Positions 755-63,943 of a stretch of 64,000 nt of DNA are shown piece by piece; position 1 is the first letter of the stretch, and every line of letters begins with the position of its first letter. The notes beneath the pieces are model-generated. The model worked only from the letters and a program-made list of their open reading frames with translations. It did no database searches and had not been told where the DNA came from. Location of the stretch: contig CABHOK010000020.1 in the NCBI GenBank assembly GCA_902168205.1, positions 1-64,000 of the forward strand, written 5' to 3'. This stretch comes from an uncultured Chitinophaga sp. (GTDB lineage Bacteria; Bacteroidota; Bacteroidia; Cytophagales; Cyclobacteriaceae). The translations under genes and the position numbers were made by a program.

Positions 755-822
755 TCTCGCAACTCGCGACTAAAAGCTCACAGCTGCATTCCCCAGCAGC
801 TAGCAGCCAGAAACCAGCAGCC
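755..822. repeat. Degenerate heptamer array abutting rsmB stop
   Basis: Read on the minus strand, this is a run of 7-bp words beginning directly after the TAG stop of the rRNA methyltransferase (823-825): first GGCTGCT-type words (GGTTTCT, AGCTGCT), then AGCTGTG-type words (AGCTTTT, AGTTGCG). The period of seven is kept while the words vary. The same two word families recur at 2023-2223, 2480-2596, 3301-3445 and 45429-45621. A shorter relative of the CGTTATC family lies at about 643-662. Confidence 0.75.
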
Positions 823-2013
823 CTACTTCCTCTTCAGCAGTGCCATATAAAATCCATCAAACCCATCGCTTGGCCATACGTGTTGATCTTCGAGGAGTTC
901 GAAGTCTGATGGATTGTTGTCGAGGAACTTCTTTACCTGTTGTTGGTTTTCGGAGGGAAGTATACTGCAGGTAGAATATACCATGAGTCCACCGGGCTTT
1001 ACCATCTGGCAGTAGTCTTGGAGTATATGTTGTTGCAGTTCTTTTACATTGGTGATAAACTCTTCAGAGAGTTTCCACTTGGCATCGGGGTTGCGTTTTA
1101 GTACACCTAAACCCGAGCAAGGTACATCGAGTAATAAACGATCGGCAGAATTTTCGAGTCGCTTGATTACTTTGGAAGAATCAATCACACGTGTTTCGAG
1201 GTTTGTAACGCCACCCCTGCGTGCACGCTTTTGCAGTTCATCAAGCTTCCATTTCTCAGTGTCCATGCCAATGATGCGTCCTTTATTTTTCATAAGAGCC
1301 GCTATATGTAGTGTCTTGCCACCGGCACCCGCGCAAGCATCGATTACACGCTGACCGGGTTCTATATTTAGAAACGGAGCGATGAGTTGAGAAGCCGCAT
1401 CCTGCACTTCAAACAGCCCGCCTTTGAATGAAGGAGCGATAAAAACATTTTGTCGTTCTTTTAAAAGCAGTGCATCCGGAAAACCTTCCACAGTATAGGT
1501 TTGTACATTTTCTTCGAGAAGTCGTTCGCGCAGATCTTTCTTGGTAGTTTTTAATGTATTTACCCGCAGAACAACTTGTGCTTCTTCATTGAGCGAGCTG
1601 AGTTCTTTATCCCAGAGCTTGCCAATTTCTTTTTCTCCAAGTTCATCCAGCCAGTCGGGTATAGATTCGCGCACCTTGCGAAATTTATCAGCGTTGCGTT
1701 TTCGCTTGGCAATTTCGTTGGGATTAACACCTTTAAATTCTTCCCATGCAGGCAACGGTATATCTTGCAGCACTAGAATAGCCCCTAGCATCTTCCAGTA
1801 ATCATGTTCACCAGCCTGCGATATTTCGCGGAGTAACCTATACCAGCGCACAATGTCGTATGTTGTTTCAGCAATAAATCGTCTGTCGCGGGCACCCCAC
1901 TTGGAATTTTGCTTCAATACTTTTTCAATTACTTTATCAGCATAGCGCTGCTCGCCAAAAATTTGTTCGAGTGCCTGTACTACTGCGTTGGTTGTGTTGT
2001 TGTATAGCTTCAT
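823..2013 (-). CDS. rsmB: RsmB/NOP-family 16S rRNA (cytosine-C5) methyltransferase
   Basis: Transfers a methyl group from S-adenosylmethionine to C5 of a cytosine in rRNA; by family, position 967 of 16S rRNA. Length 396 aa from the ATG at 2013; the open frame continues upstream to 2106, but that part consists of repeat DNA. An N-terminal NusB-like helical region precedes the methyltransferase fold. Visible motifs are the SAM-binding DACAGAGGKTLH, DVPCSGLGVLKRNPD and the catalytic-cysteine motif YSTCSILPSEN, as expected for the two-cysteine m5C methyltransferases. Target specificity (RsmB versus another NOP-type enzyme) is inferred. A heptamer array begins directly after the stop. Confidence 0.85.
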   Translation of the reverse strand: MKLYNNTTNAVVQALEQIFGEQRYADKVIEKVLKQNSKWGARDRRFIAETTYDIVRWYRLLREISQAGEHDYWKMLGAILVLQDIPLPAWEEFKGVNPNEIAKRKRNADKFRKVRESIPDWLDELGEKEIGKLWDKELSSLNEEAQVVLRVNTLKTTKKDLRERLLEENVQTYTVEGFPDALLLKERQNVFIAPSFKGGLFEVQDAASQLIAPFLNIEPGQRVIDACAGAGGKTLHIAALMKNKGRIIGMDTEKWKLDELQKRARRGGVTNLETRVIDSSKVIKRLENSADRLLLDVPCSGLGVLKRNPDAKWKLSEEFITNVKELQQHILQDYCQMVKPGGLMVYSTCSILPSENQQQVKKFLDNNPSDFELLEDQHVWPSDGFDGFYMALLKRK

Positions 2014-2022
2014 TTTTAAGTT

Positions 2023-2223
2023 AGCTGCGAGCTTTGAGCTGTTAGCTGTGAGTTGTGTGGGAAGAGGGGCTGTGAGTTTGGTGCAAAGGTGCGAAAAAAT
2101 GTGCAAAAATTAGTTGCTGGGTTCTGGCCGCTGGCTACAAGACAGAGCTACCATAGTCTTAAAAACTACAGGTTCATGGCAGTAAACGTGAATCCAGCAA
2201 ACAACGTCTGGCAGCTAGTAGCC
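2023..2223. repeat. Heptamer arrays in rsmB / small membrane protein spacer
   Basis: Three blocks. 2023-2057 holds five 7-bp words of the AGCTGCG / AGCTTTG / AGTTGTG type. 2112-2139 holds words of the GGCCGCT / GGCTACA type. 2208-2223 is an inverted block (on the minus strand GGCTACT, AGCTGCC) that runs into the neighbouring gene, so its last sense codons and TAG stop (2215-2217) lie inside repeat DNA. No gene lies between the blocks. Confidence 0.7.
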
Positions 2224-2460
2224 ATTTCTCGTCATGTATATAAACAACCCTATGGCTACCGGGTATATCAGGAAATATAGAGGCGTAGGAGGTATGATGC
2301 GCAGTAACATAACAAACGGTGACAACAAAAGGAGAATACCGCTAATGATAATAATTGTTTTCCGGGAACGCTCAATCGGTTGTCGCCCAATTTCAAACAG
2401 GTGGTAGAGCAGGTAGGTGATTACTGCTACATTAAAAGCCATCAATAGAAGACGAATCAT
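2215..2460 (-). CDS. Small integral membrane protein, 81 aa
   Basis: An unrecognised membrane protein with about three hydrophobic segments (roughly residues 2-22, 35-53 and 57-76) and a short basic loop (RQPIERSRK) between the first two. Its last codons and stop lie within a heptamer repeat block, suggesting that the C-terminus was set by repeat invasion. It is a single gene facing away from ispD. No function can be assigned. Confidence 0.6.
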   Translation of the reverse strand: MIRLLLMAFNVAVITYLLYHLFEIGRQPIERSRKTIIIISGILLLLSPFVMLLRIIPPTPLYFLIYPVAIGLFIYMTRNGY

Positions 2461-2479
2461 ATTCGAAGATAGCCAAATT

Positions 2480-2596
2480 AGTTGTGAGCTTTGAGTTGCG
2501 AGCTTTGAGAAGTGGCTTCTGTTTACAGGCTACTGGTTGCTGGTCCTGTAGCCAGAAGCCTGTAGCTTTTGATCTCGCAGCTCGTGGCTCGCAGCT
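2480..2596. repeat. Nested inverted heptamer arms upstream of ispD
   Basis: The outer left arm 2480-2509 has words AGTTGTG, AGCTTTG and AGTTGCG; the outer right arm 2574-2596 is the reverse complement type (on minus AGCTGCG, AGCCACG). Inside these, 2514-2544 (GGCTACT, GGTTGCT) pairs with 2544-2566 (on minus GGCTTCT, GGCTACA). The two word families are therefore nested as a palindromic structure filling most of the 170-bp spacer. Confidence 0.8.
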
Positions 2597-2630
2597 AATT
2601 CACTATCTTGCTGCGTAAAAATAATTTGCA

Positions 2631-3302
2631 TTGAACGCCACAGAGTACGCTATCATCGTTGCCGGAGGAAAGGGCACGCGCATTAAGAGCAAGCTTCCTA
2701 AACAATTTCTGGAGTTGAGTGGCTTGCCTATACTCATGCATACGCTCCAGGCTTTTTACCGGTACTCTTCTTCTATCAAAATTATACTGGTGTTGCCACA
2801 GGATGACTTTGAGACATGGGAAGCTCTTTGTAAGAAGTATAATTTTACCCAACCGGTTATACTTCAAAAGGGGGGTGAATCCAGATTCCAGTCGGTGAAA
2901 AATGGTCTTGATAAAATTGAGGGCGGTGGACTTGTCGCTATACACGATGGTGTTCGCCCGTTGGTGAGTGAAGATATTATAGGGGCATCGTTCAGACTGG
3001 CAGCAGTACACCAATGTGCCGTGGCTTCTGTGCGATTGAAAGATTCCATCCGCATGACGGATCAGGATACAACCAAAGCGATGGACCGTTCTAAATTCAG
3101 ACTTATTCAAACCCCCCAAACATTTCAGGTTGATCTTATCAAAAAGGCATACGAGGTAAAAGAAGATCCCAATTTTACCGATGATGCCAGTGTAGCAGAA
3201 TTCTCCGGCCACCGCATATCGCTCTTTGAAGGCAGCTATGAGAATATAAAGATCACCACTCCGGAAGACTTGGTTGTAGCGGAGGCACTCATGGCGAAAT
3301 AG
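2631..3302 (+). CDS. ispD: 2-C-methyl-D-erythritol 4-phosphate cytidylyltransferase
   Basis: Catalyses CTP + MEP to CDP-ME in the non-mevalonate isoprenoid pathway. Length 223 aa, slightly short for the family. The N-terminal nucleotide-binding signature AGGKGTRIKSKLPKQF is present at residues 11-26, followed by the conserved HDGVRPLV and TDDASVAE motifs. The start is a TTG at 2631; no ATG fits before the signature and no Shine-Dalgarno sequence is visible. The stop TAG is the first triplet of the following heptamer array. It is transcribed alone, without ispF next to it. Confidence 0.93.
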   Translation: MNATEYAIIVAGGKGTRIKSKLPKQFLELSGLPILMHTLQAFYRYSSSIKIILVLPQDDFETWEALCKKYNFTQPVILQKGGESRFQSVKNGLDKIEGGGLVAIHDGVRPLVSEDIIGASFRLAAVHQCAVASVRLKDSIRMTDQDTTKAMDRSKFRLIQTPQTFQVDLIKKAYEVKEDPNFTDDASVAEFSGHRISLFEGSYENIKITTPEDLVVAEALMAK

Positions 3303-3445
3303 CTGCGAGCTTTGAGTCATGAGTTGTGAGGCGTGTATGAGAAGCTACTGGCTTCCGGCTACTGGTCGTTTTTCCTGAGGCTATATATTTACCAGAAAAA
3401 AACGATGAGTTTACAACGCCCGTCCTGAAGCCAGCGGCCAGCACC
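3301..3445. repeat. Heptamer arrays at the ispD stop codon
   Basis: Starting inside the ispD stop codon, 3301-3335 is five exact 7-bp steps (AGCTGCG, AGCTTTG, AGTCATG and relatives). 3343-3363 holds AGCTACT, GGCTTCC and GGCTACT. 3424-3445 is an inverted block that reads GGCCGCT, GGCTTCA on minus. The last pair forms inverted arms around about 60 bp. Confidence 0.75.
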
Positions 3446-3460
3446 ATTAGCCTTAATAAA

Positions 3461-4686: not shown

Positions 4687-4695
4687 AGTTTACGT

Positions 4696-4704
4696 CCTCC
4701 TTTT
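4696..4704 (-). promoter_or_regulatory. Strong Shine-Dalgarno sequence of the DUF2795 gene
   Basis: Plus-strand CCTCCTTTT, read as AAAAGGAGG on the minus strand, at ordinary spacing before the ATG at 4686. In Bacteroidota the anti-SD of 16S rRNA is normally sequestered and such sites are rare, so this site suggests translational regulation. Confidence 0.75.
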
Positions 4705-4734
4705 AATTTTTCGCAAAAATAAAATTAATTAGGG

Positions 4735-4828
4735 CATAGTCAATAGTTAGTACTCGATAGTATTAAAAACCAAAAAGTAACCCCATGCCGCGTGCAGTCA
4801 GCGGCTCCCCACTATGCACTATGGACTA
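4735..4828. repeat. Inverted heptamer arms, CATAGTC family
   Basis: Left arm 4735-4764: 7-bp words CATAGTC, AATAGTT, GATAGTA. Right arm 4806-4828, read on minus: ATAGTGC, ATAGTGG. The arms are separated by about 40 bp and lie between the divergent DUF2795 and ettA genes. The word differs from those of the arrays around ispD, but the period and arm geometry are the same. Confidence 0.7.
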
Positions 4829-4944
4829 AAAAAGCCATATTTGCGGCCATAAACTCAACGGCTAATTTTCTGAATTATTGAAATGAAGTAGCACTTCAGG
4901 TCATAATTTTATCAGAGACCAACCATTTTTACCAATACATACTC

Positions 4945-7872: not shown

Positions 7873-8033
7873 TCGAGAAGACCGAAAGTCGAGAAGACGG
7901 AAAGGCAGGAAGTCGGGAAGTTGGATGGATACGACTCGTCTTCATAATATTGATATTGCTCGCGGGATAAACACTTAAAAACTTTTTCCGGCTTTCGGAC
8001 TTTTTCTATCTTCCGGACTTTCGGACTTTTTCC
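7873..8033. repeat. Inverted octamer arms filling the SDR-glycosyltransferase spacer
   Basis: The left arm 7873-7920 is exactly six 8-bp words (TCGAGAAG, ACCGAAAG, GCAGGAAG and variants) starting at the base after the SDR stop. The right arm 7981-8033 is the reverse complement type (on minus TCCGAAAG, TCCGGAAG) and ends at the base before the ATG at 8034. All but 60 bp of the 161-bp spacer is therefore array, with boundaries that match the coding boundaries to the base. Confidence 0.85.
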
Positions 8034-19307: not shown

Positions 19308-19309
19308 GC

Positions 19310-19418
19310 GTGTTTAAGTGTTTACGTGTTTAGGTGTTTAGGTTATGGTGATGCACCATTGTTGTTAAATTAAACGATACGTTCAACCCTAACGAACCTC
19401 AACACATTAACACAAACA
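19310..19418. repeat. Inverted octamer arms, GTGTTTAN family
   Basis: The left arm 19310-19341 is four 8-bp words differing only in the last base (GTGTTTAA, GTGTTTAC, GTGTTTAG twice). The right arm 19382-19418, read on minus, is GTGTTAAT, GTGTTGAG and more degenerate words. Spacing between arms is 40 bp. Confidence 0.82.
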
Positions 19419-22147: not shown

Positions 22148-22598
22148 GGTATTACACGCGTAAGCCTGAAGTATACTATGATATATATATCTTGCCTGTA
22201 ACCAGGTGTAGTTAATGTATGTAATGATTTTTTTGAACCGGTACACTTTTGTGATGCCGTTTTTTTTTATTTTTATCTGGTGCCGGATTCTTCGGTAAGT
22301 AAATATTTTGTGTTTTCTATTGATAATGATCTATAATATATATCTGTTTTGTTAAGATTATCGGTATATATTGTTGCTGCCTCATTAGTTTACAATGCCG
22401 CGTCATTTTTTGATGACCTATATTTGTCGGCGAATAATTGTCTTCTAACACTGCTATAGGCAAGTCAAAGAGAGTTCACTTTTTTGTTCCCGGTTAATGT
22501 GCGCTTTGAAGTAAAAGAAAACTTGTTTTGCGCGCGGTTATGTTATCCTTCGTAAAAGGAGCCGTGCAATTTTTTATATACTTTAAACTGTAGTGTGC
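22148..22598. other. 451-bp AT-rich leader of the pectate lyase gene
   Basis: No gene is seen. A -7-like box TATATTTG lies at 22419-22426, immediately preceded by an inverted repeat GTCAT-TTTTTTG-ATGAC (about 22402-22417) that could be an operator; no clear -33 TTG is present. If used, the leader would be about 165 nt. Confidence 0.45.
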
Positions 22599-25500
22599 AT
22601 GCAAAGATTTGAGGAGAGAGGAGCACTTGTGGCGCAGCCTTTCTATTGGTTGAAATTTGTTTATTTCTGTTTTTTTATTTTTTTGATGTTGATATCGTTA
22701 GCTACACAAGCGCAGTCAACATGCTATGAAACCATTACACTTCCCAGTGATAGTAAATTTGGGGGAGGAGATGTACCCGGATCAAAACTGATTGGCAATA
22801 CATACGGAGCCGGAGAAGGCCCTGGCATATATATAGTGGCTGATGGTGGTTATCGTCTGTATCTGAATGACGAATTGTTGGCCTACGATAATGCAGCCGG
22901 TCGTGTTCGTTTTATACCTATGACGTTCCTCCCGGGTAAAAATGCCATTTCAATTGTGGGTGTAAATGGTCAGGGAGCTCCCGGAGTATTGATGCACCTG
23001 GAGGAACTCGAGAAACCTTATGTTACGGACGCTGGCTGGAAAGTACTCAATAACCCGGCTGACAATAGCTGGAAGAGCCGATCGTATAATGATAGTGCAT
23101 GGCCTGCCGCTACTGTAACTACAAACGGTACGCTGACAACATTACCCAGTGGAGGTTCTCTCTCTGCACCTGCTTTTCCTATAAAGTCAAAGGCAAAATG
23201 GATTTGGTCAGGCAACGCGAAAGATAAGAATGTTGTTCTTCGCTACACCTTCAATATCAAGGCTATCGGGTTTGGCGCTGCCACTACGGGTGGTGACAAT
23301 AGCAATATTGTTATTGTAAAAAGCGAAGCGGATTTTCTGAAGTATATCAAAGACCCAGCCAGTATGGTTCTATTGATACCGGAAGGCACACTTGATTTTC
23401 GTAAGAAGCGAATTGAAACGAACATGCAGGTGTGCGAGTCAAGCTGTGAAAAAATGGGTACTTATTGTGGTACTACTCCTGCACTTCCTGGTCTTACCTA
23501 TAAACGATCTATGATGAGTGAGAGCGATTGCAGCAAAGCGAATGGTAAATATGTATACCCGTATTGGTGGGAGCAGCTTATCTGGGTAGGATCAAACAAA
23601 TCAATTATAGGTATGGGGCGTGGAGCTTCGCTGCGAGGTGCTTCTTTCTATAGCAACCAAACTGTGCTCGTACAAAATCTTATTTTCCGGAATCTGAAGA
23701 TATGGGATGTTAACCCGCATATCATTGAAGCGCAGGGCGGCATTACGTTAGATTATGTAACTAAGCTTTGGGTAGATCATTGTTCTTTTAAATGGATCAG
23801 CGATGGCAATGATGTTTCCCATGCCAAAGAAGTTACGTACTCCTGGAATCATTGGAACGGGTATAATGAATTTCAGTGTAACGGTCGTGATTTCTATGCA
23901 GCATTGGTGAGTGATTCAGACGTTACGTTTGATCATGTATTTTGGAATGGAGGAAGTGGTCGAAATCCAAAAGCCAATATCAATGCGCGGGTACACGTTA
24001 TTAATAACTATCACAAGGACAATGTTTACTATGCAATAGCATCCAATTCTCCAACGGCAGAGGTACTCGTGGATGCTAACTATTTTGACAATGTATGTTT
24101 CCCTACTTATAAATTTGCTGCGACCGGACGCATTTATTGTAATAAGAATATATATGTAAAGGCAGGTGGTTTTCTTGTTCATAATGATCTTGAAAAGACC
24201 GAACCGAAGGATGCTGTTTTTACACCACCGTATAAATATAGCCTGGATCTGGCCGATAGTGTGCCTTCGTTGGTGGCAGCGAGAGCGGGTGCCGGTGGTT
24301 CATGGGGAACTATGCCGCTTTATACAGATGCCGCCGGTTGGAAGAATACAGCACCCGATGTTTCTATTTCCTCACCCTCTTCAACAGAAGTATCGGTGTC
24401 CGCTACTGATGGTAATGGCATTGGTAAAGTTGAGTTCTATAGCGGCATAACAAAAATAGGTGAAGTTCTGAAAGCTCCTTATAATCTAAATGTAGGAGCT
24501 GATACCTGTACACGTTCCATTGTAGCAATAGTATATGATACAAAAGGACTGGCCACAACATCTTTGCCCATTACGCTGTGCAAGTCGCTGGTAGCGCATA
24601 AGTATCAGGTTAATAAGGGATCATGGCTCACGGGAACAAGCGCAACAGTACATGAAGGCGATACTATTAAATTTAGCCCACAACCATCCACTATATCTTC
24701 CGGATGGTCGTGGCAAGGACCTGGCAATTATACCGCTTCAACCCGTGCCATCCAGCTTTTTAATGTCTCGTCAGCACAAGCCGGGGTATACATAGCGACA
24801 TTGTCGGATGGTTCGGGCTGTTCTGCTAACGCAAACTTTACACTAACAGTAACGAGCACCAAGAAGTATACACTTACCACTACGGCCACACCAACTGCCG
24901 GGGGGACTATAACCGGCGCAGGAAATTATAAAGACGGCACCGTGGTAACGGTTAAAGCTACACCAGCCACAGGTTATATCTTTACGGGTTGGAGTGGTGA
25001 TGCTACGGGTACATCTACTTCAATAGGTATAACAATGGATGGTAATAAATCTGTTACTGCTACTTTCAAAGCTGTCTATACGCTTAGTACTTCAGCCAGT
25101 CCTGCAGCCGGGGGAACAGTGAGTGGTGCCGGGAGCTATAATTCCGGAGATGTGGTAACGGTTAAAGCTACACCAGCTGCAGGCTATATCTTTACGGGTT
25201 GGAGTGGTGATGCTACGGGTACATCTACTTCAATAGCTATAACAGTGGATGGTAATAAATCAGTTACTGCGAATTTCCAGGTAAAAGCTCCGGATAAATA
25301 TACGCTTACTACTACTACTTTGCCTGCAGCTGGCGGTACTGTGATTGGTGCAGGAAGCTATAATTCCGGCGATGTTGTTAGTGTGAAGGCTATACCAGCT
25401 ACGGGCTATATCTTTACGGGGTGGAGCGGTGATGTTACAGGCACATCTTCGTCTGTATCAATAACGATGGATGGTAATAAATCTGTTACCGCGAACTTCC

Positions 25501-26453
25501 AATTAATCAAGTACACGCTTGCTGCTGTCGCTACGCCAACTGCTGGCGGTACAGTGAGTGGTGCAGGAAGCTATAATTCCGGCGATGTTGTTACTGTGAA
25601 GGCCACACCAGCTACGGGCTATATCTTTACGGGTTGGAGCGGTGATGTTACTGGTACTTCTTCTTCGGTAACAATAACGATGGATGGTAGCAAATCCGTT
25701 ACAGCTAACTTTCAATTGAAAGCTCCTGATAAATATACTCTTACTACTGCGGCTTCGCCTTCTGCTGGTGGAGCAGTGAGTGGTGCCGGGAGCTATAATT
25801 CCGGAGATGTAGTAATGGTTAAAGCTACACCAGCTACAGGTTATATCTTTACGGGGTGGAGTGGTGATGCCACGGGTACATCTACTTCTGTATCAATAAC
25901 GATGGATGATAGCAAATCCGTTATTGCTAATTTTCAATTGAAAACTCCTGATAAATATACTCTTACTGCCACAGCTTCGCCTGTTGAAGGTGGTACTGTG
26001 AACGGAGCCGGAAATTATGATGCCGGAGCAACGGTAACTATTACTGTTACACCTGCAACGGGATACATCTTTACCGGCTGGAGCGGGGATATAGTGGATA
26101 CTTCCCCTGAGGTAACCCTAGTCATGAGCAGTGATAAAACTGTTACAGCCAACTTTGAGGAGCAAACGAAAGAGAGCGTTACAGTGAAGCCACGAAAATT
26201 ATTTTCGCCTGATAACCGCGGTGATGCGAGCACAGAAACCTGGGAAATTGAAAACGCTTATCTGCTTGACGGTGCTGAAATTGTTATCTACAACCGACAA
26301 GGTCAAAAGGTATACGCTTCCATCGGGTATAACACTCCATGGGATGGAACATCCGGAGGAAGACCGCTTCCTGACGGTGCGTACTTTTATACCATTGTAT
26401 ATCCTGATCATAGAAAACAAACAGGAAGCGTTACTATTGCGAGATTGAAGTAA
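22599..26453 (+). CDS. Secreted multidomain pectate lyase (PL1) with T9SS sorting domain
   Basis: 1284 aa. The start is taken at the ATG at 22599; a GTG at 22593 is in frame. A hydrophobic signal (to about residue 40, ending TQAQS) is followed by a jelly-roll-like region (about 45-225), a parallel beta-helix pectate lyase domain (about 330-525) with WVDHCSF near 390 and the catalytic-arginine-type GRNPKA near 453, two Ig-like domains, six InlB-B-type repeats (about 757-1187; each with GWSGDxTGT and KSVTANF), and a C-terminal CHU_C / type B type IX secretion domain. It should be exported by the T9SS to cleave pectin by beta-elimination. The repeats are near-identical in DNA. Confidence 0.9.
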   Translation: MQRFEERGALVAQPFYWLKFVYFCFFIFLMLISLATQAQSTCYETITLPSDSKFGGGDVPGSKLIGNTYGAGEGPGIYIVADGGYRLYLNDELLAYDNAAGRVRFIPMTFLPGKNAISIVGVNGQGAPGVLMHLEELEKPYVTDAGWKVLNNPADNSWKSRSYNDSAWPAATVTTNGTLTTLPSGGSLSAPAFPIKSKAKWIWSGNAKDKNVVLRYTFNIKAIGFGAATTGGDNSNIVIVKSEADFLKYIKDPASMVLLIPEGTLDFRKKRIETNMQVCESSCEKMGTYCGTTPALPGLTYKRSMMSESDCSKANGKYVYPYWWEQLIWVGSNKSIIGMGRGASLRGASFYSNQTVLVQNLIFRNLKIWDVNPHIIEAQGGITLDYVTKLWVDHCSFKWISDGNDVSHAKEVTYSWNHWNGYNEFQCNGRDFYAALVSDSDVTFDHVFWNGGSGRNPKANINARVHVINNYHKDNVYYAIASNSPTAEVLVDANYFDNVCFPTYKFAATGRIYCNKNIYVKAGGFLVHNDLEKTEPKDAVFTPPYKYSLDLADSVPSLVAARAGAGGSWGTMPLYTDAAGWKNTAPDVSISSPSSTEVSVSATDGNGIGKVEFYSGITKIGEVLKAPYNLNVGADTCTRSIVAIVYDTKGLATTSLPITLCKSLVAHKYQVNKGSWLTGTSATVHEGDTIKFSPQPSTISSGWSWQGPGNYTASTRAIQLFNVSSAQAGVYIATLSDGSGCSANANFTLTVTSTKKYTLTTTATPTAGGTITGAGNYKDGTVVTVKATPATGYIFTGWSGDATGTSTSIGITMDGNKSVTATFKAVYTLSTSASPAAGGTVSGAGSYNSGDVVTVKATPAAGYIFTGWSGDATGTSTSIAITVDGNKSVTANFQVKAPDKYTLTTTTLPAAGGTVIGAGSYNSGDVVSVKAIPATGYIFTGWSGDVTGTSSSVSITMDGNKSVTANFQLIKYTLAAVATPTAGGTVSGAGSYNSGDVVTVKATPATGYIFTGWSGDVTGTSSSVTITMDGSKSVTANFQLKAPDKYTLTTAASPSAGGAVSGAGSYNSGDVVMVKATPATGYIFTGWSGDATGTSTSVSITMDDSKSVIANFQLKTPDKYTLTATASPVEGGTVNGAGNYDAGATVTITVTPATGYIFTGWSGDIVDTSPEVTLVMSSDKTVTANFEEQTKESVTVKPRKLFSPDNRGDASTETWEIENAYLLDGAEIVIYNRQGQKVYASIGYNTPWDGTSGGRPLPDGAYFYTIVYPDHRKQTGSVTIARLK
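24870..26160 (+). repeat. Six tandem ~215-bp repeats within the pectate lyase gene
   Basis: Units begin near 24870, 25076, 25294, 25507, 25729 and 25948. Each encodes one InlB-B-type repeat of about 72 aa. Several stretches are identical between units 1-5 (for example TATATCTTTACGGG), while unit 6 is the most diverged. Confidence 0.88.
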
Positions 26454-26530
26454 GAGAAGCAAGACGTAAGGAGCAAGAATGTTCTTCTTGCTCCTTACTA
26501 CTCGCGGTTCAGGGTTCGTGGCTCGAAGCT
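26454..26530. repeat. Heptamer hairpin and inverted block after the pectate lyase stop
   Basis: Directly after the TAA (26451-26453), 7-bp words such as GAAGCAA and GGAGCAA run to 26479 and pair with an inverted arm 26482-26503; the core stem GTAAGGAGCAAGAA / TTCTTGCTCCTTAC is perfect. 26501-26530 is a minus-oriented AGCTTCG / AGCCACG block of the family seen around ispD. The hairpin could also act as the transcript end. Confidence 0.75.
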
Positions 26531-45428: not shown

Positions 45429-45621
45429 AGCTGCTAGCTGCCAGATTTGAGCTTCGAGTTTTAAAAAGAGGAGTTACTGAATGAAAAGTAGCTCCTCTTT
45501 TTTTGGGCTGCAGGCTTCAGGCTGGTAGCCTCTGGTTGTTACAACTATATTCAATGTAACTGCTACTAACGAATATATATATATATGTATTTTTTCTTGT
45601 CGTAACTCAAAGCTCGCAGCT
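45429..45621. repeat. Heptamer arrays between convergent PQQ dehydrogenase and aldo/keto reductase genes
   Basis: 45429-45463: five 7-bp words (AGCTGCT, AGCTGCC, AGCTTCG and relatives), starting three bases after the TAA. 45506-45540: five words of the GGCTTCA type. 45604-45621: inverted AGCTGCG / AGCTTTG words ending 3 bp before the convergent stop. An AT dinucleotide run lies at 45572-45585. Each arm thus sits at a stop codon. Confidence 0.8.
45465..45505 (+). terminator. Terminator inside the heptamer spacer
   Basis: Stem AAAGAGGAG / CTCCTCTTT (45465-45473, 45492-45500), extended by TACT/AGTA, followed by a run of eight T. It serves the PQQ dehydrogenase gene. Confidence 0.85.
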
Positions 45622-45624
45622 ATT

Positions 45625-46623
45625 TCAAAGGTCTGCAAGTACGAACTCACTCGCAGCCTTGTCGATTATTTTCAGCTCTTCATCTGTGAGTCTGAATTCA
45701 AGTGCTTTTACGTTTTCTTTTACCTGGTTCTCGTCTCGTGCACCCACCAGTACGCAGTCCATGGCAGGTTGGCGCGTTGTCCAGTTGATGACGAGTTGAG
45801 ATAGCGTTGCTTCGTGTGCATCTGCTATAGGTTTTATTTTCTGTAGCAATGCGTTGGCGCGATTTATATTTTCGGCAGTATAGAATTTGTTGTTCTCGCG
45901 TGTATCGCCTTCACCAAATTTATAGCCAGGTTTTATTTTGCCGGAGAGTAAGCCGCGCTGCAGCGGGCTGTAGGGAACTATACTCAATCCTTTTTGCAAG
46001 GCTTGGGGTACTACATCTTTTTCGATGCCGCGGTTTATCATGCTATAGGGAACCTGGTTCGAAGCTAGCTTTACAGTCTTAAGAGCTTCATCAACCTGCT
46101 CGGTGTTATAGTTACAAACACCGGCTGCGCGTACTTTACCTTGCTCTATCAATTTAGCAACGGCACCCATCGTTTCTCCTATAGGCGTTGTTGCATCCGA
46201 CCAGTGTATTTGTAACAAGTCGATATAGTCGGTCTTTAATCTTCGTAAACTGTCTTCACATTCTTTAATTACCTTGGCAGCTCCCGAGTAACGGTATACT
46301 TTCAGTGGTTTACCTTGATTGTCGGTTGTGTCGAAGAAGAATTCGCCCTGGTCGGTTTCCCAGTTCAAACCATATTTAGTCAGTATCTGGTATTTATCGC
46401 GCGGTATACCCTGCAACGCTTTGCCTACGAGTTCTTCACTGCGACCGAAGCCATATACCGGTGCTGTATCAATGGTAGTCATGCCGAGATCATACGAAGC
46501 ACGTATCGCGCGTAATGCAGCACTCTCTTCGGCTCCTCCCCACATCCATCCGCCAACAGCCCATGCACCAAATGCCATCGGGGTAACTTTTACTGACGAG
46601 CTTCCTAGTTTTATTAATTCCAT
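45625..46623 (-). CDS. Aldo/keto reductase
   Basis: 332 aa TIM-barrel NADPH-dependent reductase of the YajO/GSP69-like class. Catalytic residues are seen in TIDTAPVYGFGRSEE (Asp, Tyr), KYGLN (Lys) and LLQIHWSD (His). Substrate unknown. It follows the CHAT gene on the same strand after a gap that is entirely octamer repeat, and is convergent with the PQQ dehydrogenase. Confidence 0.9.
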   Translation of the reverse strand: MELIKLGSSSVKVTPMAFGAWAVGGWMWGGAEESAALRAIRASYDLGMTTIDTAPVYGFGRSEELVGKALQGIPRDKYQILTKYGLNWETDQGEFFFDTTDNQGKPLKVYRYSGAAKVIKECEDSLRRLKTDYIDLLQIHWSDATTPIGETMGAVAKLIEQGKVRAAGVCNYNTEQVDEALKTVKLASNQVPYSMINRGIEKDVVPQALQKGLSIVPYSPLQRGLLSGKIKPGYKFGEGDTRENNKFYTAENINRANALLQKIKPIADAHEATLSQLVINWTTRQPAMDCVLVGARDENQVKENVKALEFRLTDEELKIIDKAASEFVLADL

Positions 46624-46625: not shown

Positions 46626-46663
46626 TTTACGTGTTTATGTGTGTATGTTGTTACGTGTTTACG
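46626..46663. repeat. Octamer array filling the whole gap between two genes
   Basis: 8-bp words CGTGTTTA, TGTGTGTA, TGTTGTTA and CGTGTTTA again (46630-46661). The gap between the AKR start (46623) and the CHAT-gene stop (46664) is only 40 bp and consists of this array. The word belongs to the GTGTTTAN family seen after cinA. Confidence 0.78.
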
Positions 46664-49522
46664 TTACATGCCCATCATGACGAAGGCGCCCCAGTAGTAG
46701 GGATCTTTATATTTAGTCATGAGTTGCAGTTGGGCTTGCTTGAAGGCTTTTTGTTTGTTGCCGAGTTTTAGCCAACTGGTATAAAAATTACTCATCAGTT
46801 GTTGGGTGGCGGCATCGTCTACTTTCCAGAGACTCATGATCAGTGCATCGGCACCGGCTACCAGAAATGCGCGCTGCAGTCCGTATACTCCTTCACCTGC
46901 TTTTACATCACCAAGTCCGGTTTCGCATGCACTTAATACAATCAGGTCGGTTCCTTCTAAATTTAGGTTCATCGCTTCATAAGCAGTAAGTATACCGTTG
47001 TCGTTACTGTCCAGGTCTGGCGTTCGTTTACCGCTCACTGTTCCGGATGCTCCTGTTAATAACAAGCCCGAACGAAGTAAAGGATTGTCGTTGGCATTTT
47101 CAAGATGTATACCAAAGGCAGCACCACTGCTTTCTATATCTTTCAGAAAATATCCATGCGTGGCAATGTGTACAAGGGTAGGGGCTTTGATTGCTTTCAG
47201 GTTCTTCTCAGTGGCAGTCTTTTGTGTATACTGTGTTACCTGGTAGCCTGATGTTTTTAATACTTTGGCTATATTATCAATCTCTACTTTGGTCCCCGGT
47301 AATGCTGCTATATCTCCGGCTCCGTAATCCGGAAACCCTAACAATGTAGCATTCTTTTTGGGGGCTTTTGCTTTCTTGCTCTTCAGTGCAATGAGATCTT
47401 TAGAGTTACCAAGAATGACGAGGTCATAACGATTGATGATATAATCGGCACCTGGTTTTTTTAGTGTATTGAGGTTGATCTGGTTATAGGCGCCATCAGG
47501 AGATATATAGATTAGTTTCTTTCCTTTCAACTCGGGCTCGATACGCGCCCAGTATTGATCGTACGAGTATTCATCGGCTATACGTTGCTGTACTGCGTTA
47601 CGATAAAATTTAGCATAGCGTGTATCGAGTTGTGTGCCATTGTCTAGCACAATCAGTTTGGGTACTTCCGTTGCTTTCGTTACGACAAGCGCAAGGTAGC
47701 GGGCGTCATTCTCAAACTTCTGGTCGTACCTGGCAACGCGTATAATTTCTACGACAGCTTCCGTATCTGTGAGCAGAGCTTTGATCTGATCTACACTTAT
47801 TTTTTTAGCAGAGTACCCTGAAGAGAAATCGCCTGAGCGTTCGGATAACTTTCTTTCCATCGCATTGGCTGCACGTTCAAGCGAATCGAGATTTATACTC
47901 TGTTGTTTTAATTCCTGCTTGGAGTAAGCATATAAACGTGCGAGTGTCTCCTTCTGGTCAAGCCACGTACGGTAATCTTTAATAAGCTGCGCATCTTTAC
48001 TGGAAAGAATCGCCTGCTTTACTTTATTGGTTGAGTTAAGGAGTAATGCTTTGGTGGCGATCTGGTAATCGTAAAGTGCTTCAATAATGTGTATATTATC
48101 CTGACTGCCTTCTATAGCAAAATTATAGAATCGCTGAAAACGTGGCGAGAGTATATCCCAGTACTTGGTTTTCTCTGCTTCGCTCATCGGCGGGAAATAC
48201 GTGTTGATGAAGTTCAGCGATTTGTCCATTACATCGCGGTACATCATGAACGCACTTTCCCAGGTTTTACGTTTCCAGTAAAGTATAGCCAGGTCCTCCT
48301 GCGACTGTACGTATAGCGGGTGATTCTTGCCCAACGTTGTCTCACGAATGGCCAGAGCTTTCTGTAACAACGGATCAGCATCGGTATATTTGGTTTTATA
48401 GCGATAAAAGTTACCGAGGTCGCTGATGGCTTTGGCGTATGCCGGGTTTTCTTCGTTGAAGTTGGATTTATAGATAGCGGCCGAACGTTTCAGAAGATCT
48501 TCTACTTTATCTTCTTTATTCATGACCATATATAGCGCGGCCTGGTTGTTGAGCATGGCAGCATAGTCAGGACTGTTTTTGCCGAGCCTTTTCTCCATGC
48601 CCAGGTATATGGTTTCTGCTTCCGGATATTTACCCATCTGCTGATATAGCAGGGCGAGGTTTGCCAGGAACTTTAAATGATTTCTGGATTTACTGCTTTG
48701 AAGTCGTTCAGCAATCGCAATTGCTTCCTTAAGAATTTTCTCAGCTTCTTCAAATCTACCAATAGCCTGAAAGAGCATAGCCTGGTTGTTCAATGCTATA
48801 GCATAAGGCATCGCTGCCTGCAGGTTGTTTGCCTTCATAATGCCGAGCGATGCCTCAAAATCGTTCTCTGCTTCGTTGTAGCGTGCGAGATTATACTTTA
48901 GCACTCCGTAATTGTTGAGTGATGCCGCCACACTGGTATTGTTGTCGCCATATTTAGTCTTGCGCATGGTGAGCGCTTCCACCGTAAACTCTTCAGCCTG
49001 GGTAAAGCGACCCATGGTGGCATATAGTAATCCCTGGTTGGAGATAGTTTTGAGATAACCTATATCTTCTTTCAGACTTGCTTTTTCGTACGCAAGCTTG
49101 GCGGCTATAAATTTTTTCTCGGCAAGCGTAAATTTTCCATTGGCATACCATACCTCGCCGGCTTCGCGATGAAAGCGGGCAAGTTCGGCATCCGATAGTT
49201 CTTCATTTTTTAAGTATGATGATGTGAGCGATACGGCCGATGTAAAGCGAGCGGCTGTCTCACCTTTTTCTTTTACATCGAACAAGGCAGCATTATCGCT
49301 TAACAGAATGGCGTAGTCAAAATCAGAAGAGTCGAACTCGGCACGGGCCCGCTCCATGTCTTTCATGGCGAGGTTAAACAGCTTATCGCGGTTCTCTTTG
49401 GTGTTAAGACTTTTACCAACATCGGTAGCCGCTTTCTTCAGGTCTTTCAGAATTTGTGCGTATAGCGGAGTGGTCCAGGAGAGTATAATAAAAATAGCTG
49501 CGACAGTAGAGGTTCGCTTCAT
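46664..49522 (-). CDS. Exported TPR-CHAT protein
   Basis: 952 aa. Signal peptide (to about residue 22, PLYAQ). Residues about 120-430 contain roughly seven tetratricopeptide repeats (for example NYGVLKYNLARYNEAENDFE). A helical linker follows, and the C-terminal CHAT domain (about 640-952) keeps the caspase-like dyad: His in LVHIATHGYF (about 789) and Cys in LSACETG (about 866). A cysteine peptidase is therefore expected, acting in the envelope. The substrate is not evident: no gasdermin-like, caspase-like or Cas gene is nearby. It is common in Bacteroidota as an orphan gene. Confidence 0.87.
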   Translation of the reverse strand: MKRTSTVAAIFIILSWTTPLYAQILKDLKKAATDVGKSLNTKENRDKLFNLAMKDMERARAEFDSSDFDYAILLSDNAALFDVKEKGETAARFTSAVSLTSSYLKNEELSDAELARFHREAGEVWYANGKFTLAEKKFIAAKLAYEKASLKEDIGYLKTISNQGLLYATMGRFTQAEEFTVEALTMRKTKYGDNNTSVAASLNNYGVLKYNLARYNEAENDFEASLGIMKANNLQAAMPYAIALNNQAMLFQAIGRFEEAEKILKEAIAIAERLQSSKSRNHLKFLANLALLYQQMGKYPEAETIYLGMEKRLGKNSPDYAAMLNNQAALYMVMNKEDKVEDLLKRSAAIYKSNFNEENPAYAKAISDLGNFYRYKTKYTDADPLLQKALAIRETTLGKNHPLYVQSQEDLAILYWKRKTWESAFMMYRDVMDKSLNFINTYFPPMSEAEKTKYWDILSPRFQRFYNFAIEGSQDNIHIIEALYDYQIATKALLLNSTNKVKQAILSSKDAQLIKDYRTWLDQKETLARLYAYSKQELKQQSINLDSLERAANAMERKLSERSGDFSSGYSAKKISVDQIKALLTDTEAVVEIIRVARYDQKFENDARYLALVVTKATEVPKLIVLDNGTQLDTRYAKFYRNAVQQRIADEYSYDQYWARIEPELKGKKLIYISPDGAYNQINLNTLKKPGADYIINRYDLVILGNSKDLIALKSKKAKAPKKNATLLGFPDYGAGDIAALPGTKVEIDNIAKVLKTSGYQVTQYTQKTATEKNLKAIKAPTLVHIATHGYFLKDIESSGAAFGIHLENANDNPLLRSGLLLTGASGTVSGKRTPDLDSNDNGILTAYEAMNLNLEGTDLIVLSACETGLGDVKAGEGVYGLQRAFLVAGADALIMSLWKVDDAATQQLMSNFYTSWLKLGNKQKAFKQAQLQLMTKYKDPYYWGAFVMMGM

Positions 49523-50596: not shown

Positions 50597-50812
50597 GATT
50601 GGAAAATTAGAAAATTGGAAAATTGAAAGATTGTTTTGTCTATAGGTGTTGAGTTTGTTCAATATAAACAATCTCTCCATTTGAAGATTGGAAAATTATA
50701 GGATTGGAAGATTGGAAGATTGGAAGATTGGAAGATTGGAAGATTGGAAGATTGGAAGATTTATCTTCCCAATAGCCTGTATTTAAATTTTATAATTTTT
50801 CAATCTTCCAAT
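50597..50812. repeat. GATTGGAA octamer array with perfect tandem core
   Basis: 50597-50636 holds degenerate words (GATTGGAA, AATTAGAA, AATTGAAA). 50702-50757 is seven exact copies of GATTGGAA. 50780-50812 is the inverted arm (on minus TATTGGAA, GATTGAAA). The array starts about 16 bp from the TIM-barrel start and ends just before the queA terminator. The perfect core is expected to vary in copy number by slippage. Confidence 0.9.
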
Positions 50813-56701: not shown

Positions 56702-56703
56702 TA

Positions 56704-57601
56704 GTCGTTATCCGTTAATTGTTATCCGTTATCCGGGAGTTATTCAGAGGTGTTGGTATATCTATGATATACCTGTTATTATTAACTTGATCGGATTTTT
56801 GTTGAGTTTTATTCATTCATGCTAATTCTATTAAGGCAGATCGTGTAATTTGGCTTTCGGAATCGACATCGTATGAATATTGAACGCCTGAAGAAAATTC
56901 ACCGATACTCCGGTATAATACTGGCCACTTTCTTTCTCTTTCATATTGTCAATCATCTTTTCGCATGGGGCGGTCCTGATACGCACATACGCGTTATGAA
57001 TTTATTCCGCCATGTTTACCGCTTTCCTCCGGTAGAAGTAATTTTGTTGTTGAGCGCGCTTATACAGGTAACTGTTGGTTTAATGCTGGTGTGGCAAAAA
57101 GGATTCAGAAAAAATCTATATGATCTTTTGCAGGTTATCAGCGGGCTATACCTTTCGTTTTTCCTACTCTTTCATATTCGTGCCGTATTGCTTGGACGCT
57201 ATTCCTGGAATGTAGAGACTGATTTTTATTTCGCTGCATGGGGCGTAAAGAACCATCCGGCCGATCTGTTTTTTATACCCTATTACTCGCTTTCCGTACT
57301 CTGCGTATTTATACACCTGGCTTGTGTACACCGCCAGAAGATGCTCGCATTAGCTGTAACAAATGCAGGCGTTGTAACCTCACCACTACAGGTAACACGT
57401 CAGGCGATTGTAATTATAGCTACCGGCATTGTGGTAACGGCATTAATCCTGGCTGCTTTTATAATAGCATGATGATATATACTAACGATTATAAAATCTC
57501 TTGCACAGAGATAACGAAGAAGACACAAACAACAAAAAGGCTTTGCTTACCTTGCGTCTGCATTTATCTACGGATAACGATTCACTAATAACGATTAACG
57601 G
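56704..57601. repeat. Inverted CGTTATC heptamer arms bracketing a gene
   Basis: The left arm 56706-56733 has 7-bp words CGTTATC, CGTTAAT, TGTTATC and CGTTATC, starting four bases after the regulator's stop. The right arm 57570-57601, read on minus, has CGTTAAT, CGTTATT, AGTGAAT and CGTTATC, ending 10 bp before the kinase start. Together they enclose about 840 bp holding one complete gene (56873-57472). Confidence 0.8.
56873..57472 (+). CDS. Succinate dehydrogenase membrane-anchor-like protein
   Basis: 199 aa with five hydrophobic helices. The opening IERLKKIHRYSGIILATFFLFHIVNHL carries a histidine pattern like heme-binding cytochrome b subunits of succinate dehydrogenase/fumarate reductase; later FLLFHIRAVLLG and FIHLACVHRQK give further candidate ligands. 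No flavoprotein or iron-sulfur subunit is nearby, so a stand-alone quinone- or heme-linked role is possible. It is inserted between the two genes of a two-component pair and flanked by inverted heptamer arms. Confidence 0.7.
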   Translation: MNIERLKKIHRYSGIILATFFLFHIVNHLFAWGGPDTHIRVMNLFRHVYRFPPVEVILLLSALIQVTVGLMLVWQKGFRKNLYDLLQVISGLYLSFFLLFHIRAVLLGRYSWNVETDFYFAAWGVKNHPADLFFIPYYSLSVLCVFIHLACVHRQKMLALAVTNAGVVTSPLQVTRQAIVIIATGIVVTALILAAFIIA

Positions 57602-57611
57602 CTAAACGAAC

Positions 57612-60557: not shown

Positions 60558-60604
60558 AATCCTAAAATCTTTCAATCTTAAAATTTTTCCAATCTTCCAA
60601 TTCC
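60558..60604. repeat. Octamer arm of the GATTGGAA family
   Basis: Read on minus: AATTGGAA, GATTGGAA, then AAATTTTA-like and GATTGAAA, GATTTTAG words. It occupies the 65-bp gap between two divergent genes and reaches the base before the AraC-family start at 60606. The word matches the array at 50597-50812, 10 kb away. Confidence 0.75.
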
Positions 60605-62089: not shown

Positions 62090-62120
62090 TTGCATTTACC
62101 AGACAGGCAGTTTACCTTTG
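62090..62120 (+). promoter_or_regulatory. rplM-rpsI-rpsB operon promoter
   Basis: TTG (62090-62092), 20-bp spacer, TACCTTTG (62113-62120), a perfect -7 match to TAnnTTTG. Confidence 0.65.
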
Positions 62121-62170
62121 TGTCCCTTTTTGAAAGGGGTAGTGTTTTTAATTGAATCTCTAATAATAAA
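62121..62170 (+). promoter_or_regulatory. Candidate L13 leader hairpin
   Basis: The roughly 45-nt leader contains a compact hairpin CCCTTT-TTG-AAAGGG (62125-62139). Ribosomal protein leaders of this kind often bind the first operon product; here that would be L13. Function is inferred. Confidence 0.4.
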
Positions 62171-62614
62171 ATGGATCATAATAGCTATAAAACACTGAAT
62201 GCCAATAAGGCTACAGTTGAAAAAGGCTGGGTAATAGTGGACGCAAACGCACAGGTGCTGGGTCGTGTGGCTAGCCAGGTTGCCCACATTATTCGTGGAA
62301 AGCATAAGCCAAGCTATACTCCCAATGTGGATTGTGGCGATAACGTAATTGTTATCAACGCGGAAAAAGTAAGAATGACTGGCAAGAAGTGGACTGATCG
62401 CGTGATCTTCACACACTCAGGTTACCCAGGCGGTCAGCGCGAGCACACTCCTACTATGATCCGTTCAAAGCATCCTGAGCGCCTCATCGAGCACGCTGTA
62501 CGCGGCATGCTTCCGAAGAACAGACTCGGACGCGAACTTTTCAGAAGCCTGCATGTTTATGCCGGTAACGAACACCCTCATACTGCTCAACAACCTAAAG
62601 AAATAAAGTTCTGA
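62171..62614 (+). CDS. rplM: 50S ribosomal protein L13
   Basis: 147 aa, the usual length. Conserved [40 protein letters not shown] and [18 protein letters not shown] are present. First gene of the operon with rpsI and rpsB. Confidence 0.97.
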
Positions 62615-62618
62615 TATC

Positions 62619-63005
62619 ATGCAGATCATCAACACCATCGGTAGAAGAAAAACCTCCATTGCCAGAGTGTATGTAAAACCTGGAAAAGGAGATATTAAAG
62701 TGAATGACCGTGATCTGAAGGAGTACTTCCTTTCTGAAATTCACCAGACTACAGTAAAGCAACCTCTTTCTACCATTAAGGCAGAAGGCCAGTATGATGT
62801 TACTGTAAATGTTGAAGGTGGTGGCGTAAAAGGCCAGGCAGAAGCAGTTCGCCTTGGTATTGCCCGCGCACTGGTTGAGTTCAGTACTGAAAACAAGCCT
62901 GCTCTGAAGAAAGAAGGTTTGTTAACCCGCGACTCAAGAATGGTTGAGCGTAAGAAGCCGGGTAGAAGAAAGGCAAGAAGAAGATTCCAGTTTAGCAAGC
63001 GTTAA
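62619..63005 (+). CDS. rpsI: 30S ribosomal protein S9
   Basis: 128 aa with [17 protein letters not shown] at the start and the basic C-terminal tail [17 protein letters not shown] that reaches the ribosomal P site. It starts 4 bp after rplM. Confidence 0.97.
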
Positions 63006-63018
63006 TCATAACAAGAGA

Positions 63019-63789
63019 ATGGCTGAAAAATTAACATATCAGGATCTGTTGGATGCAGGTGCACACTTTGGTCACCTCACCCGCAAGTGGAACCCGAAGA
63101 TGGCTGAGTACATCTTCATGGAAAATAATGGTATCCACCTTATCGACCTGAATAAAACATTGGCATGCTTAGACGAAGCTACTTACGCACTGAAGAACAT
63201 TGTTCGTTCAGGTCGCAAGATCATGTTCGTAGCAACGAAGAAGCAAGCTAAAGATATCGTATCGGAAGAAGCAAAACGTCTTAACATGCCGTTCGTAACA
63301 GAGCGCTGGTTAGGTGGTATGCTTACAAACTTCGCTACAATCCGTAAGTCTTTGAAGAAACTCGCGCAGATCGAGAAGTTGATGAAAGACGAAGCTTTCA
63401 CCAACCTTGCGAAACGCGAACGCCTCATGGTAACTCGTGAGAAAGCTAAACTTGAAAAATTGTTAGGTGGTATCGCTGATCTGAACAGACTCCCTGCAGC
63501 ATTGTTCGTGATTGACGTAAAACGTGAGCACATCGCTGTAACAGAAGCTCAAAAACTCAACATCCCGGTTTTTGCGCTGGTAGATACAAACTCAGATCCT
63601 TCAGGTGTTGATTTCCCGATTCCTGCCAACGATGATGCTTTCAAATCAATTTCTATCCTGACCAAATATATTGGTAAAGTGATCGAAGAAGGTTTGATGG
63701 AGCGTAAGAAAGATAAAGATGACGCTGCGCAGAAGAAGGAAGAAGACGAGAAGAGAAAAGTTGATTCTGCAGTAGAAGAAAGCAAATAA
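63019..63789 (+). CDS. rpsB: 30S ribosomal protein S2
   Basis: 256 aa from the ATG at 63019 (preceded by AAGAGA); the open frame extends into rpsI but the family start is LTYQDLLDAGAHFGHLTRKWNP. Conserved RWLGGMLTNFATI and VDTNSDP are present. The C-terminal 30 residues are a charged Lys/Asp/Glu tail (KDKDDAAQKKEEDEK). Confidence 0.97.
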   Translation: MAEKLTYQDLLDAGAHFGHLTRKWNPKMAEYIFMENNGIHLIDLNKTLACLDEATYALKNIVRSGRKIMFVATKKQAKDIVSEEAKRLNMPFVTERWLGGMLTNFATIRKSLKKLAQIEKLMKDEAFTNLAKRERLMVTREKAKLEKLLGGIADLNRLPAALFVIDVKREHIAVTEAQKLNIPVFALVDTNSDPSGVDFPIPANDDAFKSISILTKYIGKVIEEGLMERKKDKDDAAQKKEEDEKRKVDSAVEESK

Positions 63790-63856
63790 TTAAAAGCTGA
63801 TGTGCCAAGGTGCAAAAAATGCACGCGGTAGTCATAATTAATGCAATGATAATGCA

Positions 63857-63893
63857 CTAAACATCGGCCCAAAGCCGGTGTTTAGTTTTTTTT
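63857..63893 (+). terminator. Terminator after rpsB
   Basis: Stem CTAAACATCGGC / GCCGGTGTTTAG (one mismatch/wobble; 63857-63868 and 63874-63885) followed by eight T. It separates tsf transcription at least partly from the rplM operon. Confidence 0.9.
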
Positions 63894-63914
63894 AGGGAGT
63901 TCAAAAAAATAGAT

Positions 63915-63943
63915 AATCGTAAATACTAAAAATCGTAAATACT
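63915..63943. repeat. Octamer array ending at the tsf start
   Basis: Two 13-bp copies ATCGTAAATACTA with a period of 16, readable as alternating 8-bp words (AATCGTAA, ATACTAAA). The second copy ends in the ATG of tsf. No other spacer sequence separates it from the gene. Confidence 0.65.

Follow-up and report, generated by a model that had tools for sequence, protein, structure and literature searches.

What are the short, degenerate words that occupy the spacers between genes in the first 64,000 nucleotides of contig CABHOK010000020.1, why do they so often begin at a stop codon, and how did they come to be there? This stretch (the window; C20:1-64000) is part of a 7.3-Mb genome of the Ohtaekwangia group (G000, 99.5% complete), for which a preliminary description had proposed a genome-wide system of 7- and 8-bp word arrays placed at gene boundaries. 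A total of 864 kb of this genome (the window plus 800 kb, 12% of the genome) was examined in the present study, together with relatives given here under their presumed names: G150 (UBA5867), G151 (a metagenome-assembled genome, MAG), G074 (Ohtaekwangia koreensis DSM 25262), G148 (Parachryseolinea silvisoli) and G127 (Pseudochryseolinea flava). Genes were called with a custom hexamer caller, in which start positions are approximate. The analysis confirmed that the arrays are a real pattern, stronger than the window alone could show, and we tentatively suggest that they may be DNA-level elements of gene 3' boundaries.

Self-matching runs at lags of 2 to 20 nt were scored in 529 noncoding spacers (100.7 kb) and compared with the expectation from dinucleotide shuffles. 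At a run score of at least 12, periods 7, 8, 14 and 16 were represented in 7, 22, 8 and 23 spacers, respectively, versus 0.2, 0, 0.2 and 0 expected; all other periods gave zero to three spacers each, and coding segments matched in length gave no such run. A run score of at least 9 yielded 95 arrays in 68 of the 529 spacers, and seven dispersed word families account for 84 of these arrays. Three families have 8-bp units, namely F1 (RATTNNAA; GATTNNAA), F2 (GTGTKTAN; GTGTNTAN) and F3 (AAGWCSGR; AAGNCNGN), and four have 7-bp units, namely F4 (GAGCTNN), F5 (CGTTANN), F6 (AGTAAGA, the GGAGCAA of the preliminary description) and F7 (TGGCTNC). Core letters are mostly 92-100% fixed per family, except for one or more positions of F2, F4, F5, F6 and F7 fixed at only 69-89%, and the same positions are free at unlinked loci; arrays were selected for self-similarity, which favours fixity within arrays and not between them. 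A position weight matrix (PWM) scan of 519 spacers with the word profiles, at thresholds (T) of 16 (lax), 20 and 24, identified 200 arrays at T≥20 versus 4.25 per dinucleotide shuffle (four shuffles), where the profiles had been trained on arrays later scored and the shuffle control used identical profiles. Arrays were present in 92 of the 519 spacers (about 18%). Across the whole genome, a 22-nt query of perfect F1 units matched at 47 partly overlapping sites with up to three mismatches, compared with none for the reversed pattern. The proposals that the words keep their register above chance, and that several families with fixed and free positions form a genome-wide system, were thereby borne out, the latter in the 864-kb sample.

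The arrays show a pronounced handedness, described here with X for an array in the forward word orientation and X' for the opposite orientation. Neighbouring arrays of the same family were arranged as X..X' in 41 cases and as X'..X in none, with seven X..X and seven X'..X', versus 20 X..X, 21 X'..X', eight X..X' and two X'..X among neighbours of different families; at T=16 the ratio of X..X' to X'..X was 43 to 0 within and 16 to 6 between families. The statement that most arrays occur as two inverted arms holds for the 51 of 92 array spacers with a same-family X..X' pair (five more have a different-family X..X' pair alone) and fails for the 36 with neither; one of the 92 additionally carries a same-family X'..X. 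At least two families are combined in 30 of the 92 spacers, including composites such as F4>F7>..F7<F4<. Arrays began no more than 2 nt from a stop codon, or overlapped it, in 49 of 224 pairs versus 9.7 expected if arrays were placed at random within their spacers, with arrays between convergent genes entered once per stop. Called start codons, which are approximate, showed no excess in the genome sample (6 of 172 versus 6.4 expected), and the ends noted earlier near the next start are a property of single loci (8034 and 60606). Within 15 nt downstream of stops, 71 arrays read as X and 10 as X' on the sense strand, and within 20 nt upstream of called starts X' was found 25 times and X once. 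Convergent spacers are richest in arrays (27 of 86, compared with 16 of 103 divergent and 49 of 330 tandem spacers; chi-square p=0.0013). Genes adjacent to arrays use TAA less and TAG or TGA more as stop codons (11 TAA, 23 TAG and 22 TGA, n=56, versus 339, 155 and 190, n=684; p=1e-5).

Within the window, the PWM scan placed word arrays in twelve spacers, in line with the original count of at least twelve, and a CATAGTC pair was found in the spacer 4687-4944. The precision ascribed to the arrays at stops 823, 3300, 7872, 19307, 26453, 45425 and 56701 was reproduced, all of them beginning between -2 and +3 nt from the stop. The arrays are as follows, located by the PWM scan unless otherwise indicated, with ORF denoting open reading frame.

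640-663, minus strand: F5, X'
756-785, minus strand: F4, X'
793-822, minus strand: F7, X', touching the stop of ORF 823-2106 (minus strand)
2023-2057, plus strand: F4, X
2111-2138, plus strand: F7, X
2190-2224, minus strand: F7, X'
2480-2509, plus strand: F4, X, outer left arm of a nested F4-F7-F7'-F4' palindrome (scan and fold)
2513-2543, plus strand: F7, X, inner left arm of the nested palindrome (scan and fold)
2545-2566, minus strand: F7, X', inner right arm of the nested palindrome (scan and fold)
2574-2596, minus strand: F4, X', outer right arm of the nested palindrome (scan and fold)
3301-3330, plus strand: F4, X, at the stop of ORF 2631-3302 (plus strand)
3344-3365, plus strand: F7, X
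3424-3443, minus strand: F7, X'
4735-4828, no strand assigned: CATAGTC (7 bp) arms, left words from 4735 by eye, right arm 4810-4828 by the lag test
7873-7925, plus strand: F3, X, offset 0 from stop 7872
8003-8029, minus strand: F3, X', 4 nt upstream of ATG 8034
19309-19343, plus strand: F2, X, 1 nt past stop 19307
19396-19418, minus strand: F2, X'
26455-26479, plus strand: F6, X, 1 nt past stop 26453
26494-26530, minus strand: F4, X'
45429-45462, plus strand: F4, X, 3 nt past stop 45425
45506-45538, plus strand: F7, X
45600-45621, minus strand: F4, X', 3 nt off the stop of ORF 45625-46623 (minus strand)
46626-46664, plus strand: F2, occupying almost the entire 40-bp spacer
50597-50633, plus strand: F1, X
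50679-50761, plus strand: F1, X, including a run of perfect GATTGGAA units
50782-50812, minus strand: F1, X'
56702-56735, plus strand: F5, X, offset 0 from stop 56701
57570-57605, minus strand: F5, X', upstream of ORF 57612
60558-60589, minus strand: F1, X', upstream of ORF 60606

Both CATAGTC arms are discernible in G150, G151 and G074, and the F3 array at 7873-7925 has a counterpart in the same three genomes; the perfect run within 50679-50761 is without counterpart in G150.

The proteins of G150 are 93.6% identical to those of G000 and four-fold sites differ at 40.5%, orthologous arrays being counted in both directions in the divergence comparison with four-fold sites. At T=16, 14 of the 16 window array spacers have an array of matching family and orientation in G150, and the two misses were weak. 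In a comparison based on 20 arrays of this one 64-kb region, with gapless runs shorter than 16 nt excluded, 39 of 398 core letters (9.8%), 50 of 147 free letters (34%) and 91 of 547 positions in the 30-bp flanks (16.6%) differed (core versus free, p=1.6e-10; core versus flank, p=0.003; free versus flank, p=9e-6). The cores are therefore either constrained or rewritten.

Comparison with O. koreensis shows that many arrays occur in one species and are absent in its sister, while place and word are kept between closer relatives. In C3a, 22 of 108 orthologous spacers carry arrays in G000 and three in O. koreensis only; seven of the 22 have arrays in O. koreensis as well (one of a different family only, one weak). 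O. koreensis is array-poor, with 17 arrays at T≥24 in 480 kb versus 174 in 864 kb of G000. Arm places still scoring at least 18 in O. koreensis amounted to 6 of 8 for F3, 4 of 11 for F5, 2 of 8 for F4 and 1 of 5 for F1, and to none for F2 (of 5), F6 (of 4) and F7 (of 6). Decayed relics were considered in O. koreensis and rejected, as most of the non-scoring arm places resemble shuffles, and the arrays are therefore mainly present or absent and not decayed. The stop codons of array-adjacent genes, some of which also carry an array in O. koreensis, fall on the same codon as in that species in 11 of 15 genes and within one codon in all 15, compared with the same codon in 148 of 179 non-array genes. 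Matches to the F1 pattern numbered 175 in G000 and 120 in G150, with one to eight in each of the five remaining members of the genus (reversed control 11, 9 and 0-1, respectively). Since F4 is abundant in the more distant G127 (52 matches, compared with 86 in G000, 52 in G150 and 0-2 in the other four; reversed control 11, 6, 4 and 0-2, respectively) and scarce elsewhere, the word sets are patchy.

Tentatively, and with somewhat less than even confidence, we propose that the arrays are strand-symmetric, DNA-level 3'-boundary elements, which would arise by overwriting or insertion and be maintained through purifying selection acting on word cores. They would overwrite dispensable spacer sequence, or insert into it, as far as the last base that is under selective protection; comparison with O. 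koreensis leads us to infer this origin, reaching to the stop codon. The core would afterwards be held by purifying selection while the free letters drift; DNA-level constraint on the cores is the best-supported step of this explanation. The core would most likely be read as DNA by a putative factor, or would set DNA structure between genes that are often convergent; core constraint and strand symmetry bear only indirectly on a protein that binds the word. As elements of double-stranded DNA, the arrays would be positioned like the heptamer pairs of Xanthomonas described below, and the bacterial interspersed mosaic elements (BIMEs) of E. coli are comparable in their 3'-boundary position.

Several observations weigh against this proposal, the narrow base of the rate comparison among them. 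Core divergence is near the all-spacer mean of 12.6% and clearly lower only than that of the immediate flanks. O. koreensis manages with few arrays, which therefore have no essential role. The handedness of spacers with a single array is weak (19 for versus 12 against), and 10 of 81 arrays on the stop side are exceptions to the X sense bias. Several readers would be required for seven families, for which no candidate was found and none was searched for, and continued rewriting could be an alternative cause of core conservation. Against the reality of the pattern itself, coding DNA also gives PWM matches, with 42 at T≥20 alongside 205 noncoding matches in the whole sample (7 and 174 at T≥24), and the reversed-sequence control gives 57 noncoding and 25 coding matches at T≥20 (41 and 2 at T≥24); the noncoding control matches probably reflect the near mirror symmetry of some words.

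Functionless writing is a rather unlikely alternative that would account for the geometry: spacer ends would be cut back as far as the gene, lengthened on both strands in the 5'-to-3' direction by 7- or 8-nt words, and joined, which would leave X..X' pairs, families nested in one another and arrays sharply bounded at stop codons, the handedness following from extension of both 3' ends. The change in spacer length relative to O. koreensis is small in the 15 spacers with an array in G000 only (median +13, with a wide spread) despite arrays of 14-103 bp, and, by eye, a terminator-like hairpin of O. koreensis at C3a:149293 is gone in array-bearing G000 and array loops look unrelated among loci. 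Drift of free letters in place around a conserved core is, however, unexpected of one-off neutral writing, and telomerase-like repeat addition, which calls for a reverse transcriptase gene in the array-rich genome, finds no match in G000 with RVT_1, the only profile used, whereas the remaining six genus members have one or two matches each. Ku, with two genes in G000, was found in all seven genus members and is therefore not informative on array origin. To our knowledge, no enzyme writes such words, and a trans-acting, word-specific DNA writer in Bacteroidota distinct from known reverse transcriptases, acting in spacers by telomere-like 7/8-nt end extension and joining and giving every lineage a changing lexicon of boundary words of its own, later co-opted and kept by selection, is highly improbable. 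It is unlikely, too, that the arrays are RNA 3' hairpins, in which transcribed arms would pair and halt transcription or protect mRNA 3' ends. The hairpin potential attributed to the inverted arms was recovered in four of five folded examples, which beat shuffles (z -2.2 to -6.1, the composite palindrome 2484-2594 reaching -6.1; the fifth z -0.45), and arm pairing energy was -25.4 kcal/mol within versus -8.7 kcal/mol across families. Convergent ends with an array are poorer in canonical terminators (12 of 47, versus 54 of 118 array-free ends; p=0.02), and terminator substitution was seen at convergent ends only, tandem ends showing no deficit (9 of 38 versus 68 of 281); where the array was distant, a terminator was present at 5 of 11 tandem ends and at 4 of 7 convergent ones, and at C3a:135163 a terminator-like hairpin with a T-run persists next to an array (by eye). 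On average, arms matched their own partner no better than a foreign one (mean rank 0.51 of 39; free-letter identity 0.63 with the own and 0.66 with a foreign partner), although the own partner was in the best tenth for 8 of 39 arms (about 4 expected) and the arms at C2a:71880 and C2a:292056 share stretches of at least 20 nt by eye. Compensatory change between arms, as in an RNA structural element, was not found on average. The T fraction past the distal arm was near the spacer mean in 33 elements, giving no U-tract of the intrinsic-terminator kind, and core changes in tandem spacers lacked wobble asymmetry (59 of 1169 wobble-keeping versus 48 of 1013 wobble-breaking; p=0.77). RNA pairing is therefore not visibly conserved, and the role in transcript 3' ends proposed in the preliminary description is not supported as the selected function, although the terminator-poorer convergent ends speak in its favour.

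Ordinary slippage during the replication of simple sequence repeats of 7-8-bp units, for which a polymerase-grip hypothesis exists (Mrazek 2007, as cited in PMC4692102 and PMC4679880), would fit the preference for periods 7 and 8 with different words in other Bacteroidota, as well as a few perfect expansions. As the origin of the present arrays, for which it had been put forward, it is quite improbable: of 511 pairs of adjacent units just 22 were identical (six families lay below the random expectation, and F1 gave 0.07 versus 0.06), with no clear excess of likeness between neighbouring units, and a few words common to the 92 spacers of the sample are not a product of local slippage. The long perfect or near-perfect arrays of GATTGGAA (window 50679-50761) and GTGTTGAG (G016, 29824-30095 of an 80-kb stretch) are slippage-like and, unlike most arrays, resemble recent expansions. 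Recent block copying was likewise considered and rejected, as the loci show no clear excess of long common blocks, F3 being slightly high (8 versus 4.9 for 16-mers, 1 versus 0.1 for 24-mers); the test is limited to recent events because the free letters drift fast, and old copying may be erased. Mobile palindromes of the repetitive extragenic palindrome (REP) type, associated with REP-associated tyrosine transposases (RAYTs), are barely credible, even though the arrays are intergenic, palindromic and biased to 3' ends and G000 has a single Y1_Tnp match (E=8e-8), a RAYT-like gene at C2:175460-175825. By eye, REP-like palindromes of another kind than the word arrays lie next to this gene, where strong word arrays are missing, to which the unrelated-looking loops and the lack of a clear excess of common blocks may be added. 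Y1_Tnp does not track array content, being found in G148 and G149 with no period-7/8 arrays in 40 kb of each.

The preliminary description knew of no described equivalent, which calls for correction. In Xanthomonas, GGGAATC heptamers are mostly intergenic, lie at genes of many classes and have no known function, with 70 and 75 inward-facing pairs, near stops, in two genomes (Rehm et al. 2015, PMC4692102). As in G000, these noncoding arrays have a period of 7, face inward in pairs and place the word on the coding strand after the stop; G000 adds the 8-bp unit. Xanthomonas has one G-rich, quadruplex-forming word per genome, whereas G000, a member of the Bacteroidota, has at least seven words with fixed and free letters, in units of 7 and 8 bp and in nested composite palindromes. 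No fixed GGG is present in the seven profiles, and F3 units may contain GGG. The same source gives a Nostoc heptamer repeat, GGGGA(C/T)T, and cites three tandem heptanucleotide words in one Calothrix genome (PMC4692102). In having several heptanucleotide words tandemly repeated within one genome, G000 resembles the short tandemly repeated repetitive (STRR) sequences of cyanobacteria. We know of no paired, stop-abutting, degenerate architecture among the STRR heptamers. Enterobacterial REP/BIME sequences are extragenic palindromes at 3' ends, linked to RAYTs and not known to have word periodicity, which distinguishes the present arrays from them. Heptamer arrays are also on record within Bacteroidota: arrays of TAACTGA are published for five Bacteroidetes as well as for Beggiatoaceae and cyanobacteria (MacGregor 2015, PMC4679880). 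These are intergenic heptamers at gene edges with a patchy distribution, as here; in their main genome they differ in lying mostly just on the start side in one orientation, with one fixed word and one inverted repeat only (PMC4679880). Among titles and abstract openings of the open-licence literature on heptamer, octamer or degenerate intergenic repeats we found no system of this type for Bacteroidetes or Ohtaekwangia, which is weak evidence, as subscription journals are mostly outside that coverage. The arrays are a dense, multi-word, degenerate member of a known and poorly understood class of intergenic 7-mer arrays.

Arrays of similar period extend beyond the genus. Runs of period 7, 8, 14 or 16 with other words were found at 8 of 37 named loci (L098-L134), among others in Chryseosolibacter, Chryseolinea, Arcicella and a Crocinitomicaceae MAG, and also in four sampled genus or family members. 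The GTGTTTAN pattern is present in 19 of 148 family genomes and 14 of 84 genera, with at least ten matches in six genomes. In two other genera, g16 and g17, it was arranged as X..X' ten times and X'..X once, and within 15 nt after stops the sense strand carried X 15 times and X' never; these loci were chosen for holding GTGTTTAN (19 of 20 gave arrays) and are informative on handedness and position, not on frequency. Among 18 other Bacteroidia genomes (20-40 kb each), picked from those matching a class-wide F5 search, arrays of period 7 or 14 were seen in four and of period 8 in none. The class-wide F5 pattern itself matched 52 of 148 genomes, and its reversed control also matches many, so that little is said about F5. 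That control, composed of ATTGC-based heptamers, gave 126-187 matches each in G236, G244 and G255, which probably have heptamer words of their own.

Other features of the window stand apart from the arrays. The AATCGTAA words at 63903-63943, previously listed among the word families, turned out not to be dispersed but to belong to a locus-specific EF-Ts leader conserved in three relatives; the AATCGTAAATACT words there, upstream of the EF-Ts start, are conserved together with an rpsB-tsf hairpin and T-run. ORFs overlap on both strands at 2595-3320, where the caller chose the plus-strand ORF 2631-3302 and the minus-strand ORF 2595-3320 is less conserved than neighbouring ORFs. A 222/435-bp tandem repeat occupies 24945-26090 within ORF 22593-26453, and the repeat region looks longer in G151 and G074. 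Searches of the window gave no Rfam match and no tRNA.

Period-7 intergenic arrays are an unexplained over-representation in bacteria, for which a polymerase-grip guess has been offered (PMC4692102, PMC4679880). The occurrence of several words, of array-bearing and array-free sister species and of free letters serving as an internal near-neutral standard makes the question testable, and this genome allows slippage, copying and RNA structure, all three unsupported here, to be told apart from one another and from DNA-level constraint. Should proteins read the cores, these would form an unannotated layer of 3'-boundary elements in Bacteroidota; should the arrays be written, a novel DNA synthesis activity would exist.

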